A stretch of DNA of 64,000 bases from Verrucomicrobiota bacterium (lineage in GTDB: Bacteria > Verrucomicrobiota > Verrucomicrobiia > Limisphaerales > VHDF01). Positions 26,802-58,119 of the stretch are shown piece after piece; the first letter of the stretch is position 1, and the number at the start of each line of letters is the position of its first letter. A program made the translations under genes and the position numbers. The notes under the pieces are model-generated. The model saw nothing but the letters and a program-made list of their open reading frames with translations. It was not told the origin of the DNA and made no database searches. The DNA lies in the NCBI GenBank assembly GCA_016871495.1, contig VHDF01000014.1, forward strand, positions 1-64,000, written 5' to 3'.

Positions 26802-28935
26802 TTGGCAACACCCGGCTCCGGCATAAGCATTGCTCAAATCGTCATTCTCGGAGGCGGCTGCGCCGGAGTCGCCTGCGCCAGGGAATTAAGGCGCGAGCTG
26901 GATCCGAACCAAGCCGAGATTACCCTGTTCAATGAGGAAAACCGCCGGAGTCGCCTGCGCCAGGGAATTAAGGCGCGAGCTGGATCCGAACCAAGCCGAG
27001 ATTACCCTGTTCAATGAGGAAAACCATTTGGTTTTCAGTCCTCTCTTGGCGGACGCCGTGGGGGCTTCGCTCAATCCCCTGGATGTCGTGGTCCCCCTCC
27101 GCCAGTTGCTGCCGGGCGTGAATTGCCGGACCCAGGAGATCGTTCGCATCGACCTGCAAGGAAAACGGGTCGTGGGTAAAGGACATGGCAGTCCCGACAC
27201 CGAATTGGCATTCGACCATCTGGTGATTGCCTCGGGCCAGGTGGCCAACATGAATGCGGTGCCGGGCATGGCAGACCACGCGTTTCCGTTGAAGACCGTG
27301 GCTGACGCCAGCGTGCTGCGAGCCCATGTGCTCGAACAGCTTGAACTTGCGGAGATCACCCAGGATCCCGAACGGAAGCGCTGGCACTTGTCATTCGTCG
27401 TTGTCGGAGGAGGCTACAGCGGCGTGGAGGCGGCCGGCGAAATCAATGACTTGGTGCGCAGCAGCCTTCGCTTCTTCCGGCATGTGCGCCGGGAGGACGT
27501 TCGCGTCTCGCTCATCCATTCGCGCGGCCAGTTATTGCCGGAAATCGGAGACGCGCTTCGCGATTTCGCCCGCGTCAAAATGGAGGGCGCTGGAGTCGAG
27601 GTTTTGCTCAACGCCCGGGTGCAGATGGCGACTCCTGAAGGGGTGGGGCTCGCCGACGGAAACTTCATCCGGGGCGCCACCACGGTCTGCACCGTGGGCA
27701 GCATGCCGGCTCCCATTCTGGCCAAGCTCGAAGTGGGCAAGGACAAGGGCCGCCTGCGCGTTGAACCCGACCTGCGGGTGCAAGGCCGGAACGACCTCTG
27801 GGCCATCGGTGATTGCGCCACGATTCCGAATGCGTTTGATGGACAGCCCTGCCCTCCGACCGGCCAGTTCGCGGAGCGGCAAGGAAAACAAGCCGCGGCC
27901 AATATCGCTCGTGTCTTGCGAGGAGAACCGACCCGGCCTTTTTCCTTCAAGCCGCTTGGACAGCTCTGTTCGATTGGCGGCCACAGCGCGGTGGCCGAGG
28001 TCTTCGGCTGCCGCCTTTCGGGATTCCTGGCTTGGTTCGTCTGGAGGGGCGTGTATCTCTTCAAGCTCCCCTCCTGGTCCCGCCGCTTCAAGGTGGGGTT
28101 CGACTGGGCGTGGCTGCTCGTTTTCGCGCGCGATCTCAGCCATTTGAAGGCGCGGACGACGGATCGCGTCTCTCACGCGCACTTCGAGCCGGGGGATTTC
28201 ATTGTCCGCCAGGGGGACGCTTCGGCTAACTTTTACGTCATTGAAAAAGGCGAAGTGGAGATCCTCAAGGAATCGGGGTCGCCTCCCAAGTCCGACATGA
28301 TCGCGGTGCTGGGACCGGGCTCGTTTTTCGGAGAGCAGGCGCTGGTCAACAACAGTCCGCGCATCGCGTCGGTGCGCGCGAGGACGGCGGTGGAAGTCGT
28401 CGTCATGGGCCGGAATGTTTTCGATCAGGTTTCCAAGACGCTTGCGCCCCTTCGCGTGGCGATTGCCCAGGCGCTGAATCGCCGTTCGCAGGACGCCTGG
28501 AAAGACCAACCCCTGGCCCAGGAAATCATGAAACGCACGGAAGTGAATGCGATCCTCGACCCGGCTCCCCAGCCTTTCTTGGCGCCCACCGCCACCCTGC
28601 TCGAAGTGAGCGAGGCCTTTGTGGAATCCGGCAACGACTGTTTCCTGGTTTCAAGCGATGGGATGAACCTGGCGGGGATTGTCACCATGACGGATTTGAT
28701 GCGCGCGCACAGCACGCCATCGGACGGCCTTCAGACATTGGGGGAATTCATGACCGCGCAACCCGTGGCTCTTTGCCTGGGCGACTCCTGCGAAGCCGCG
28801 GCCTCGACGTTTCGAGAGCACAAGCTCAAGACGTTGCCGGTGGTCGAAAAAGGCACGCGCAAACTCGCCGGATGCGTGCGCGCACGCCGCCTCATGGCCT
28901 ATGTGCTCCGGGAAATGCGAAAGTCCAGGCCGTAA
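26802..28935 (+). pseudogene. NDH-2-like FAD oxidoreductase + cNMP-binding + CBS pair (frameshifted)
   Basis: The first frame (TTG start 26802, AAGGAG 3 bp upstream) begins with the dinucleotide-binding strand QIVILGGGCAGVACAREL, but an 82-bp tandem duplication shifts it to a stop at 27015-27017. The second frame, from ATG 26932, runs 667 aa without the GxGxxG motif. Removing one copy restores a single protein: a FAD/NAD oxidoreductase like type II NADH dehydrogenase (VVVGGGYSGVEAAGEI; DLWAIGDCATIP), then a cyclic-nucleotide-binding domain (about residues 415-515 of the long frame, FGEQALVNNSPRIASVRA) and two CBS domains (about 540-665). As sequenced the gene is probably inactive. Expected role: membrane-associated NADH oxidation gated by nucleotides. 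Confidence 0.8.
26861..27024 (+). repeat. Perfect 82-bp tandem duplication
   Basis: Unit 1 is 26861-26942 and unit 2 is 26943-27024. The two are identical and both begin CGCCGGAGTCGCCTGC. As 82 is not a multiple of three, it breaks the reading frame of the oxidoreductase just after its first beta strand. Confidence 0.97.
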
Positions 28936-29250
28936 GAGCCCGGACCCGTTCGAGCCGAGGTGCGGAACGGTGAGTAACTTGAGCATCAAGGTGGACCGGT
29001 GGTATCGTCGCTGCGCTCCTCAACCACCGGCTAAAAGCTGACAAGCCTCCGGCTTGCGACCGAGCCGCTGCACGTCGCTCTGGTCTCACATCCCTTCTGC
29101 ATCCGTCCCGCATCTCCCGCTTGGGGGCAGGAGCGCGCCGCACTCGACGGCGATCGGAGCCCCTGCGTCATCTGGCAAAAAAATCTTTTAACCGAAAGAG
29201 AATCGTGACTGTCTTGCCATCAAATCGTAACCTGAGATCAAATCGCCTCC
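28936..29250. repeat. Intergenic palindromic elements
   Basis: Spacer of 315 bp. It holds copy 2 of the 20-bp repeat (28959-28978; copy 1 at 1819). It also holds an 8-bp inverted repeat, CCGGTGGT (28996-29003) with ACCACCGG (29023-29030), and a tight hairpin CAAGCC-TCC-GGCTTG (29042-29056). These look like repetitive extragenic palindromes or a weak terminator after the oxidoreductase gene. No gene is seen. Confidence 0.5.
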
Positions 29251-44783: not shown

Positions 44784-44970
44784 CGCGCTGCTCGATGCGG
44801 ACGCGACTCAACACTCGCACCGTGAGCCCTCCCTCTCCCCGCAGCGCAGCGCGGGGAGAGGGCCGGGGAGAGGAGCCTTCGAACCATGAGACGGCAATGC
44901 ATTCCCACGCTCCTCCTCTCCCCAGCCCTCTCCTCCACCGAGTGGAGGAGAGGGAGTTCTGATGGCGGCG
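44784..44970 (+). repeat. Dispersed ~187-bp double-hairpin repeat, copy A
   Basis: More than 90 percent identical by eye, and in the same orientation, to 57932-58119. It holds two strong hairpins. Hairpin 1 has a 12-bp stem (44831-44842 with 44851-44862) around an 8-base loop. Hairpin 2 has a 13-bp stem (44926-44938 with 44942-44954) around a 3-base loop. Differences from copy B fall largely in loops and linkers. It lies 56 bp beyond the ureG stop codon, at the left end of the urea module. Confidence 0.9.
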
Positions 44971-46536: not shown

Positions 46537-48252
46537 TCAGAACAGGAAATAACGCTGGGCCAGGGGAAGGCTGGAGGCGGGATCGCATTTCAGAAGAACT
46601 CCATCGGCCCGGACTTCGTAGGTCTCGGGATCCACGGTGATTTTGGGGAGTGCGTCGTTCCAGCGCATCGAATGTTTGCCAATGTTGCGGCATCCGGACA
46701 CAGCTTCAATTCTCTTACCGAGACCGTAACCGGCGGCAACCCCGCGCTCCAGGCAGAGTCGGCTGACGAAGGCGGCTGAAATGGGTCCCCCCGCCCGGCT
46801 GAAAGCGCCGAACATCGGGCGCATGAGCACCGGTTGCGGTGTGGGAATGCTGGCGTTGGCGTCCCCCATCTGAGCCCAGGCGATGAAACCACCCTTGATA
46901 ACCATCTCGGGTTTGGCTCCGAAAAATGCGGGCCTCCACAGAACCAGATCCGCCAGCTTGCCGGTCTCCACCGAACCGACCAGATGGGAGACCCCGTGTG
47001 CGATTGCGGGATTGATGGTGTACTTGGAAATGTAACGTTTGATGCGCAGGTTGTCGCTGCCGGCAGTTTCGCCCGGAAGGGCTCCTCGCTGCTGCTTCAT
47101 CTTGTCGGCCGTCTGCCACGTGCGGGTGATCACTTCGCCAATCCGGCCCATGGCCTGCGAGTCGGAACTCATGATGCTGATCGCGCCAAGGTCGTGCAGG
47201 ATGTCTTCAGCGGCGATGGTTTCACCGCGGATCCGGCTTTCGGCGAAAGCCACATCCTCCGGCAATTCCGGGTCGAGATGATGACACACCATCAGCATGT
47301 CGAGGTGCTCGTCCAGGGTATTGACGGTGTAAGGCCGGGTTGGATTGGTAGAACTCGGCAAGACATTGGGTTCCCCGCAAACCCGGATGATGTCCGGAGC
47401 GTGCCCACCGCCGGCGCCTTCGCTGTGATAGGTATGAATGGTTCGACCGCAAATGGCCTGAAGGCTCGCTTCGACAAAACCGCTTTCGTTCAGAGTGTCG
47501 GTATGGATGGTAACCTGGACATCATGCTCATCAGCCACCGCAAGGCAGCAGTCGATCGCCGCCGGCGTCGTTCCCCAATCCTCGTGGAGTTTGAGCCCGA
47601 TGGCTCCGGCGAGGATCTGATCCGGAAGCCCCTCCGGCAAGGCGGTGTTGCCCTTGCCGGTGAAGCCGAAATTGAGGGGCAGAAAGTCCACGGATTGCAG
47701 CATCGCCCGTAGGTAGAAGGGCGAAGGGGTGCAGGTGGTGGCGCAGGTGCCGGTGGCGGGCCCGGTCCCACCGCCGATCATCGTCGTCAACCCGGCGGCG
47801 ACAGCTTCGTGCGCCTGCTGGGGACAAATGAAATGGATGTGGGTATCGAGACCTCCGGCCGTCAGAATCATTCCTTCTGCCGCAATCACCTCGGTGGTCA
47901 CACCCACCACCATGCCGGGTGTGACGCCGGCCATGACATCCGGATTTCCCGCTTTGCCAATGCCCGCAATCAGACCGTTTTTGATCCCGACGTCAGCTTT
48001 GAAAATGCCGGTCGAATCGACGACGAGGGCGTTGGTGATGACGCAGTCCAGGGCGCCCGCGGCATCCACACCCGCCGCCTGTCCCATCCCCTCGCGAATC
48101 ACCTTGCCGCCACCGAATTTGCATTCGTCGCCGTAAACGGTGTGATCCCTTTCGACCATGAGATAGAGTGACGTATCTCCGAGCCGGAGCCGGTCGCCGG
48201 TGGTCGGGCCGAACATTCCGGCATACTGCGCGCGTGGGATGATTCTTGCCAT
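46537..48252 (-). CDS. ureC: Urease alpha subunit
   Basis: 571 aa, standard length for the catalytic subunit hydrolysing urea to ammonia and carbamate. Nickel ligands and active-site residues are seen: [13 protein letters not shown], the carbamylated Lys in [28 protein letters not shown], the flap [14 protein letters not shown] with its catalytic His, and [18 protein letters not shown]. All key positions appear intact. The start codon directly abuts the stop of ureAB. Confidence 0.97.
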
Positions 48253-52806: not shown

Positions 52807-54486
52807 TCAACCCTCAAGGCTGCGGCTGCGTGTGACAAAAAGACCGGCTGGCCGCCATTGGAGGAACAAGATGATGGCGGCCAGCACGGTGATTTTACCC
52901 ATCACGGCCCCCAGCCACGGCTGGAGAATCTGGTCCGTGACCCCCACCCCCAGGGAGGCAAACACGGTTCCCAATAAATTTCCGACCCCGCCCATCACCA
53001 CGATCATGAAACAATCCACAATGTGGTTCTGGCCGAGACTAGGGCCCACGTTTCCGATTTGGGAAAGGCAGGCGCCGGCCATCCCGGCCAGCCCTGATCC
53101 AAACATGAAGGTGAGCATGTTGACGCGATCGGTTCTCACGCCGAGGCAACTCGCCATCGCCCGGTTCTGCATCACAGCCCGGATCTGCAGACCCACCGGG
53201 GTCCGGACCAGCAGCAGCCAGGTTCCCAAAACGACCAGGACGGCGAACGCGATGACGAAGAGTCGGTTGTAGGCCAGCAAAACGTCATGGACCACGTAGC
53301 TTCCGCTGAGCCAACGGGGCGAGCTGACCTGGACATTGGCGGCGCCAAAAATGTGCCGGAAGATCTGCTGCAAGAGCAGGCTCACCCCCCAGGTGGCCAG
53401 CATCGACTCGAGCGGACGTTGATAGAGAAACCGGATGATCCCGCGTTCCAGCGCGAGCCCGACCAGGCCGGCAAAAAAAAACGAGGCCGCAAGTGCCGCT
53501 GGAAAATAACTGTCGAACCCCGCACCCGACGCGCCAAAAGCCGACTTGAACAGATTCTGGACCACATAGGTCGTGTAAGCCCCGACCATCATGACCTCGC
53601 CGTGTGCCATGTTGATCACCCCCATCAATCCAAAGGTGATCGCCAGTCCGAGCGCCGCCAGCAGCAACACCGCCGAAAGGCTGAATCCCCGGAACACCGT
53701 GCCATACAGATTGCCCCACCAGATGTAGTTTTCGATCAGGTCCACGGCTCGATGCACCGCGGTGACGGTCGCCTCATCCTTCACCCGGCCTGCTTTGACG
53801 TCTTCCCGAAGCTTTTGCAGAAAGCTCACGGATTGGATCGAACGAATTTCGCCCAGGAGCGTGACGGCCGCCGACCGGATGCCGGGATCATCCGAGACCA
53901 TCCGGGTCAGGGCCACCGCCTCCGTCAGCGATTGGCGAACCTCCTTGTCGGATTCAATCTTCAGCCGCGCTTCGAGGAAGGGAAGGTAATCGGCGTTTTG
54001 TTCCTGCCCGATCTTGACCACCGCATCCCGGCGCTGGCGCGGTTGAGGACGGGCTAGCGCGTAGAGATCGAGGGTCGTTTTGATGACCTTGCGCAGCTTC
54101 GCAGTGGTGTCGGCCGGAGTCAGCTCGCTAGCGGAAAAAAGAAGCGGTTTGCCGGAGGCATCCTTGATCGGCTCGGACGCGGGCCATTGGAGCCCCTGCG
54201 CTTTGCCCTCCGCGTCGGTCGCGGGATCCAGAAGAAACGGCAGCTTGAGCCCTCCCGGACCCTCATGAATGTAAAGACTGCCCAACCGCCAGGCCCCGAG
54301 CACCTGCTCGATCAGCGGATCAGGCGTATGCGCGAGATCGCGGATCAGGGCCGCCTGTTCGGTGGCGTCATCGCTCAGGATCGCCTTCATCAGGCTCGCC
54401 CGGGCAGCCGCATCGGCACGCAACATCGCGGGCGAGCCGAACCCCATCAGGAGCACGAGCGAAGTGATGAGTGATCTGGCGAACAT
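52807..54486 (-). CDS. urtB: Urea ABC transporter permease UrtB
   Basis: 559 aa from the ATG giving [11 protein letters not shown] signal-like segment and a long extracytoplasmic N-terminal region (about residues 20-270, with helical repeats of the HEAT type) precede the LivH-like permease ([39 protein letters not shown]). The long N-terminus is a known UrtB feature. The upstream open frame to 54576 runs through the 62-bp tandem duplication and is not coding. Confidence 0.93.
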
Positions 54487-54528
54487 GATGAGGCGGGCTC
54501 TGGATCGAGGAGAAATAGGCGGCGGACA

Positions 54529-54652
54529 GACGAACGGGGATTCACCCGCCCGCCGCCGAGATGACTGGCGGCCCAAGGGAGGCCGCCGGCGACGAACGGG
54601 GATTCACCCGCCCGCCGCCGAGATGACTGGCGGCCCAAGGGAGGCCGCCGGC
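54529..54652 (-). repeat. Perfect 62-bp tandem duplication with hairpins between urtA and urtB
   Basis: Unit 1 is 54529-54590 and unit 2 is 54591-54652. Each unit contains GGCGGCC-CAAGGGA-GGCCGCC, a 7-bp stem with a 7-base loop. Two successive hairpins therefore sit in the urtA-urtB spacer and would be present in the transcript, where they could lower expression of genes after urtA or protect the urtA message end. Confidence 0.95.
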
Positions 54653-54662
54653 TCGGGGTGAT

Positions 54663-55907
54663 TTACCGCACGGTGAGGAACTGGGAGCTAAACGGTTCGC
54701 CCGCGACGCCGTTCATGGTCTTGATGATCTTGAATTGGCCGTTGGCCAGGGTTTCACCGATGAAGGCGTTGTTCACTAGGTGATGATTCTTCTGCATGGT
54801 GACTTCGCCCGCGGGACCTTTGAACTTCAGGCCATACATGCCTTCACGAACTTTATCCACTTCGAAAGATCCGGCCTTTTCCACGGCCATCTTCCAGAGA
54901 TGAACCCCCATGCGGGATAGATTCATCGGGCTGCAGGTGACGCGACCTTTGGTATCGATTCCACTGACGGTGTAGTCCACACCCGTGACCTTGGGTTCTT
55001 TCAACCAGGTCATGAAATCCGAGACGAACTTGGCATTCTCAGGAGACTTGGTCGACATGAAGTAGGTCCAGCAACCAAGATGGCCGACAAGGTCCTTGGC
55101 AGGGAGACCGCGGAATTCATCCTCCGAGATCGAAAAGGAAACCACGGGGCAGCTCTCGCTGGTCAGACCGGCGTTGGCGAACTCCTTGAAGAAGGGCACG
55201 TTGGTGTCCCCGTTCAAAGTGCTGATCACGCAAGATTTCCCGCCCGCCGAGAATTTTTTGATCGAGGCGACGATGGTCTGGTAATCCGTGTGTCCGAAAG
55301 GCGTGTAGATTTCCTCAATGTCTGAATCGGGAATCCCCTTCGACTTCAGATACTGCTTGAGGATCTTGTTCGTGGTGCGGGGATACACATAGTCCGAACC
55401 AAGGAGGTAAAACTTCTTCTTCCCTTCCGCGAGCATGTAGTCCACCGCCGGAATGGCCTGCTGATTCACAGCCTCCGCCGTGTAGAAGATGTTCTTGGAA
55501 AGCTCCTCACCCTCGTATTGAACGGGATAAAACAGCAGGCCGTTGTGCCGCTCGAAAACCGGCAGCACGGACTTGCGGCTCACGGACGTCCAACAACCGA
55601 AAACGACCGAAACCTTGTCCTTCACCAGAAGTTGTTCGGCCTTTTCGGCGAACAAGGGCCAGTTTGAGGCCGGATCCACCACCACCGGCTCGATCAAATA
55701 GGACTTGCCGCCGGCGCGGACCCCGCCGGCCTTGTTGATCTCGTCGAAGGTGAAGAGGAGGACATCCTTCAACGAGGTTTCGCTGATCGCCATCGTGCCG
55801 CTGAGCGAGTGGAGGATGCCCACCTTGACGGTTTCCGCAACCGCCTGCGCAACGAGTACCGTCGACAAGGCGGATCCGAGAAGATACTTTAGGAACTTGT
55901 TTTTCAT
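54663..55907 (-). CDS. urtA: Urea ABC transporter substrate-binding protein UrtA
   Basis: 414-aa periplasmic binding protein. The signal peptide is [17 protein letters not shown]; the mature start [20 protein letters not shown] is the type I urea/short-chain-amide binder pattern. Further family segments are [31 protein letters not shown] and [13 protein letters not shown]. First transport gene of the module, after the porin (89 bp upstream). Confidence 0.95.
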
Positions 55908-57931: not shown

Positions 57932-58119
57932 CGCGCTGCTCGATGCGGACGCGACTCAACACTCGCACCGTGAGCCCCCCTCTCCCCGCAGCGCAGCGCG
58001 GGGAGAGGGCCGGGGAGAGGGGCCTTCGAGCCATGGGACGGCAATGCATTCCCACGCTCCTCCTCTCCCCGACCCTCTCCTCCACGCTGTGGAGGAGAGG
58101 GGGAGTTATGATGGCGGCG
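57932..58119 (+). repeat. Dispersed ~187-bp double-hairpin repeat, copy B
   Basis: Same orientation as 44784-44970 and over 90 percent identical. Hairpin 1 arms are 57978-57989 and 57998-58009; hairpin 2 arms are 58073-58085 and 58089-58101. The loop of hairpin 2 differs from copy A (GCT versus CGA) while the stem is unchanged, so the structure appears to be kept. The remaining 230 bp before the next gene shows no feature. Confidence 0.9.

Follow-up and report, generated by a model that had tools for sequence, protein, structure and literature searches.

The gene at issue lies on the forward strand of the window, by which we mean the whole stretch of 64,000 nucleotides analysed, and its product is predicted to be an NDH-2-like flavin oxidoreductase carrying two added domains of regulatory type. 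Pfam matches comprise Pyr_redox_2 (PF07992, E 4e-37), NDH2_C (PF22366, E 5e-10, 40 bits against a cut-off of 27.7), cNMP_binding and CBS; those to Pyr_redox_2 and NDH2_C exceed the curated cut-offs. Like members of the type II NADH dehydrogenase (NDH-2)/Pyr_redox_2 family, the gene joins a Pyr_redox_2 fold with two dinucleotide-binding sites to an NDH2 C-terminal domain. Unlike them, it adds cNMP-binding and CBS parts, and in the assembly its frame is broken at the glycine loop for FAD. An intact FAD-binding GxGxxG within one chain, present in the relatives, is missing here. No NCBIfam equivalog scored above its cut-off for the gene product. The neighbourhood is ordinary. Genes for a peptide release factor and a transketolase lie upstream on the opposite strand, and VTC-domain, DUF4956 and DUF3160 genes follow downstream. 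An interspersed repeat of about 143 bp (28990-29132) sits directly downstream of the broken gene; about ten near-full copies of this family, 91-95% identical, occur elsewhere in the part of the genome examined.

The break coincides with a tandem duplication, and the locus is made up of the following parts:

26802..27017, + strand: N-terminal open frame of 71 aa with a TTG start, holding the first beta strand and GGGCAG of the FAD-binding domain (Pfam Pyr_redox_2, E 4e-6, residues 12-48)
26861..26942, + strand: tandem unit 1, 82 bp, in frame with the N-terminal part (Tandem Repeats Finder, direct comparison)
26943..27024, + strand: tandem unit 2, 82 bp, identical to unit 1 and in frame with the downstream part (Tandem Repeats Finder, direct comparison)
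26932..28935, + strand: downstream open frame of 667 aa with its ATG in unit 1, holding the rest of Pyr_redox_2, NDH2_C, cNMP-binding and CBS (ORF and Pfam)

A preliminary description of this DNA had reported two identical, adjacent 82-bp units, and both Tandem Repeats Finder (one array, 26861-27025, period 82, 100% identity) and direct comparison bear this out. The units stand head-to-tail and are followed by one shared base: the exact match runs for 83 positions, so that the unit edges have a single base, C, in common. An exact 82-bp repeat cannot have arisen by chance. Since 82 is not divisible by three, the repeat shifts the frame. Reading from the TTG at 26802, the upstream frame gives LATPGSGISIAQIVILGGGCAGVACARELRRELDPNQAEITLFNEEN through unit 1, loses the frame in unit 2 and terminates at a TGA (27015-27017), precisely where the preliminary description had ended it. 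That description had also let the 667-aa frame restart inside unit 1 without GxGxxG. Its ATG is indeed at 26932, and the motif occurs solely in the upstream frame. Because unit 1 starts within the Cys codon of GGGCAG, at its third base, the downstream frame lacks the glycine loop; it retains just the final A-G of the motif, and the GGG part is missing. The site had been placed just after the first beta strand. The duplication in fact cuts the glycine-rich loop itself. Removal of one unit yields, as had been claimed, one clean protein. At 683 aa it compares with 671-693 aa for full-length relatives of the same architecture, counted from the nearest Met. Apart from the break the downstream frame is undamaged (a 681-aa open frame), and the break must for that reason be young.

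Which of the two states is ancestral? We compared the site with 14 other loci, five of the same order (G017, G008, G053, G050 and G035, the last also taken from its public record) and nine from other groups, the whole set being drawn from Verrucomicrobiota, Planctomycetota, Ignavibacteria, Thermodesulfobacteriota/'Deltaproteobacteria', SAR324 and Dadabacteria. At all 14 the site reads GGGF-(A/G)-G-V into a conserved N-terminal domain, in a single unit and one frame. The best matches in 320 genomes of the order are likewise open through the site, and in-frame stops were noted in this set only in two distant matches of 39-40% identity. No duplicated or broken site was found among the relatives read across it, that is, the 14 loci and the best order matches. 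With a single unit in relatives across several phyla, the duplicated state is the derived one. Near-identical DNA was absent from the 320 order genomes, the nearest having 68% DNA identity. The combination of NDH-2, cNMP-binding and CBS domains itself occurs sporadically in several phyla, with 50-64% identity. Shorter relatives (about 545-553 aa) appear to be without the CBS part, since their match stops near residue 520-545.

We also scanned 2.75 Mb of the 5.06-Mb genome for tandem duplications. Only two exact two-copy duplications longer than 30 bp were present, the 82-bp one and a second of 62 bp (54529-54652):

54529..54590, no strand assigned: unit 1 of the 62-bp exact tandem duplication (Tandem Repeats Finder, direct comparison)
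54591..54652, no strand assigned: unit 2 of the 62-bp exact tandem duplication (Tandem Repeats Finder, direct comparison)

This second duplication sits between urea-transporter genes, urtA-like (54663-55907, - strand) and urtB-like (52807-54576, - strand); the true start of the latter is probably near 54486. It is a separate event of the same sort as the 82-bp one. Its unit edges have 0 bp in common, and the unit is GC-rich. On the minus strand it folds into a pair of hairpins (z -1.6); its fold z values, -0.9 and -1.6, are modest. The scan further returned a 28-bp exact tandem duplication and short-unit arrays. Diverged tandem duplications of 53 bp (98% identity), 28 bp (92%) and 176 bp (88%) are also present. 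An assembler cannot produce diverged copies, and tandem duplication therefore does occur in this lineage. Both long exact duplications fall within one 64-kb window, where the chance of the second landing is about 2%. This clustering is mildly unexpected and could hint at a local factor, including a local assembly fault.

From the perfect identity of the units, the preliminary description had offered three options: a very recent event, a reversible phase switch, or an assembly error. The first is best supported, by the exact units, the one-unit relatives and the undamaged frame. Quite probably the locus underwent a spontaneous, illegitimate tandem duplication very recently, leaving two 82-bp units or a short array with more of them, and the resulting allele is a revertible loss of function. 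An exact adjacent copy with little homology at its edges, derived with respect to relatives, is what such an event leaves behind, and all of this is found here.

Could the second unit instead be a product of assembly or library preparation? On that account there is one real unit and an intact gene, and the other unit stems from a chimeric read, local gap closure or a consensus error. The assembly is a draft of 201 contigs, both exact duplications are on one contig, and unit edges with 0-1 bp in common resemble random joins. Against this stand, besides the diverged tandem duplications of the same genome, the contig ends. Among 75 contig ends compared, ten pairs have common terminal sequence, eight of the ten by exactly 127 bp; the start of the window's contig and the start of contig C7 are among the pairs that share such sequence. 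At branch points, de Bruijn assembly leaves exact end overlaps of constant length, and common SPAdes settings have 127 as their largest k. We infer from the overlaps that the assembly was made with a k=127 de Bruijn graph. Such a graph needs 128-mers over the junction to write a second unit, which makes a plain assembler error unlikely and argues that the reads contained the duplication junction. As minor alleles are removed as bulges, this argument speaks to the presence of the junction and not to its share of cells. Unmerged contig ends would repeat at k length (127, or 99/77/55), whereas the repeats measure 82 and 62. The values 62 and 82 would fit the 'k+1' of an assembler run at k=61/81, a reading contradicted by the 127-bp end overlaps and by the other periods, 28 and 53. 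The stretches examined contain no Ns, except for one contig; contig C199 of the genome is wholly N (1807 bases), its sequence being either withheld or masked. In the literature we found nothing specific on short tandem duplications made by assemblers. We hold with moderate to high confidence that the duplication is real in the sequenced DNA, and an artefact appears unlikely.

The number of units was addressed by simulation: de Bruijn graphs were built for versions of the window containing between one and five units. With k set to 99 or 127, a single unit was returned as single and a pair as a pair. Arrays of 82-bp units with three members or more collapsed to two via the shortest path, and 62-bp arrays of that size came out, at k=127, as three. 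The 82-bp array therefore has at least two units and the 62-bp array has two. This use of contig-end overlaps, reading the assembler's k from them and bounding claims about tandem arrays, can be applied again to similar findings.

The very recent duplication that we favour would act through the frame shift, after which the FAD-binding domain is not expected to be complete in any product; the predicted consequence is loss of function. Loss of the NDH-2-like enzyme would be tolerable, given that complex I is encoded at two loci in the genome; a second copy of the gene was not found elsewhere in it. How might the duplication have arisen? With only 1 bp shared at the edges, and 0 bp in the 62-bp case, nothing points to classical slippage between short repeats. 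A hairpin-driven duplication was set aside, the fold of the 82-bp unit being ordinary (z 0.1-0.2). Ku-dependent end joining is unlikely in a genome that is 97% complete and has no detectable Ku (PF02735). Non-homologous template switching at the replication fork is the remaining ordinary route and may have produced it. Exact tandem duplications, once formed, are prone to unit loss. Slippage or recombination between the neighbouring, identical units would remove one of them and repair the frame, so the allele should be reversible in one direction; the edges offer nothing for re-duplication. We infer that the junction was the main allele in the reads, and that deletion of a unit takes place at an appreciable rate.

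Does this reversibility amount to a switch? An evolved phase-variation system would gain and lose units repeatedly, turning the oxidoreductase on and off within the population. The repeat is exact, its length is not a multiple of three and it is positioned close to the 5' end of the gene. More than two units may also be present, since k=127 writes any number from two upwards as two. What such a system would need is a sequence that promotes switching in both directions and recurrence at the same site in relatives. Here the edge is 1 bp, with no flanking or edge repeat to drive re-duplication, the 82-bp unit has no unusual fold (z about 0), and none of the relatives read across the site, whether the 14 loci or the best order matches, is duplicated or broken there. 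The gene product is a metabolic enzyme, not a surface structure, and the gene is not of the kind usually switched. We found no positive evidence of an evolved switch in the sequence or the relatives and consider it very improbable. Of the phase-switch option offered earlier, what survives is that any exact tandem duplication can revert. A bolder version, equally improbable in our view, is a long-unit contingency switch, in which an 82-bp array of cell-variable unit number toggles a cNMP/CBS-regulated NADH dehydrogenase, perhaps together with other loci such as the 62-bp duplication in the urea-transporter operon. Least probable of all is a split but working gene, in which the overlapping 71-aa and 667-aa frames yield either a pair of functional chains or, by frameshifting, the full-length protein. 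In its favour, the downstream frame begins with an ATG in unit 1 and has no other damage. Against it, the glycine loop that FAD binding needs is parted from its domain, relatives make one chain, and by eye there is no ribosome-binding site or frameshift signal before 26932.

Spontaneous tandem duplications that cause loss of function have been described in the pneumococcal capsule genes cap3A (type 3), cap8E/wchA and tts (in a passage of PMC4022640 that cites Waite et al. 2001, 2003). These are the closest precedent for the very recent duplication proposed here, and the present allele belongs to a long-known sort: in both, an exact tandem duplication within an open frame leads to loss of function. 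The pneumococcal duplications are recurrent in culture and affect surface genes, whereas ours is a single event, known from a single assembly and affecting an oxidoreductase. The capsule duplications reportedly revert by losing one unit. Phase variation at simple sequence repeats (slipped-strand) is similar in that unit loss by slippage alters the frame. It differs from the present case, which has two long units, no short-unit tract and no machinery for regain. If real, the allele shows an uncultured bacterium caught with a loss-of-function mutation that can still be reversed. Gene predictions then call for caution as well: the enzyme will be listed as truncated, whereas it is whole in relatives.

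Other repeats were noticed in passing. A pair of direct repeats of about 189 bp, 94% identical, lies 13 kb apart in the window (44784-44970 and 57932-58119). An Rfam 5_ureB_sRNA match (47806-48098, 87 bits, gathering 40) runs antisense to the urease alpha-subunit gene (46537-48252, - strand) and is probably no true sRNA, scoring because it is complementary to conserved urease coding sequence. Outside the window, a sharply bounded interspersed element of 134 bp with imperfect terminal inverted repeats (CCGTGTATCCCGATGTTG... / ...CAACATCGGGATGCACCG) is distributed genome-wide, with 85 copies in 2.75 Mb (examples at L124:1-80, L112:18141-18220 and L164:2554-2634). Over the 80 bp compared, identity among the copies is 99.1%, with 49 of the 85 identical, and order relatives gave only short partial matches (3/19). 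The element is MITE- or REP/BIME-like and has apparently spread recently.
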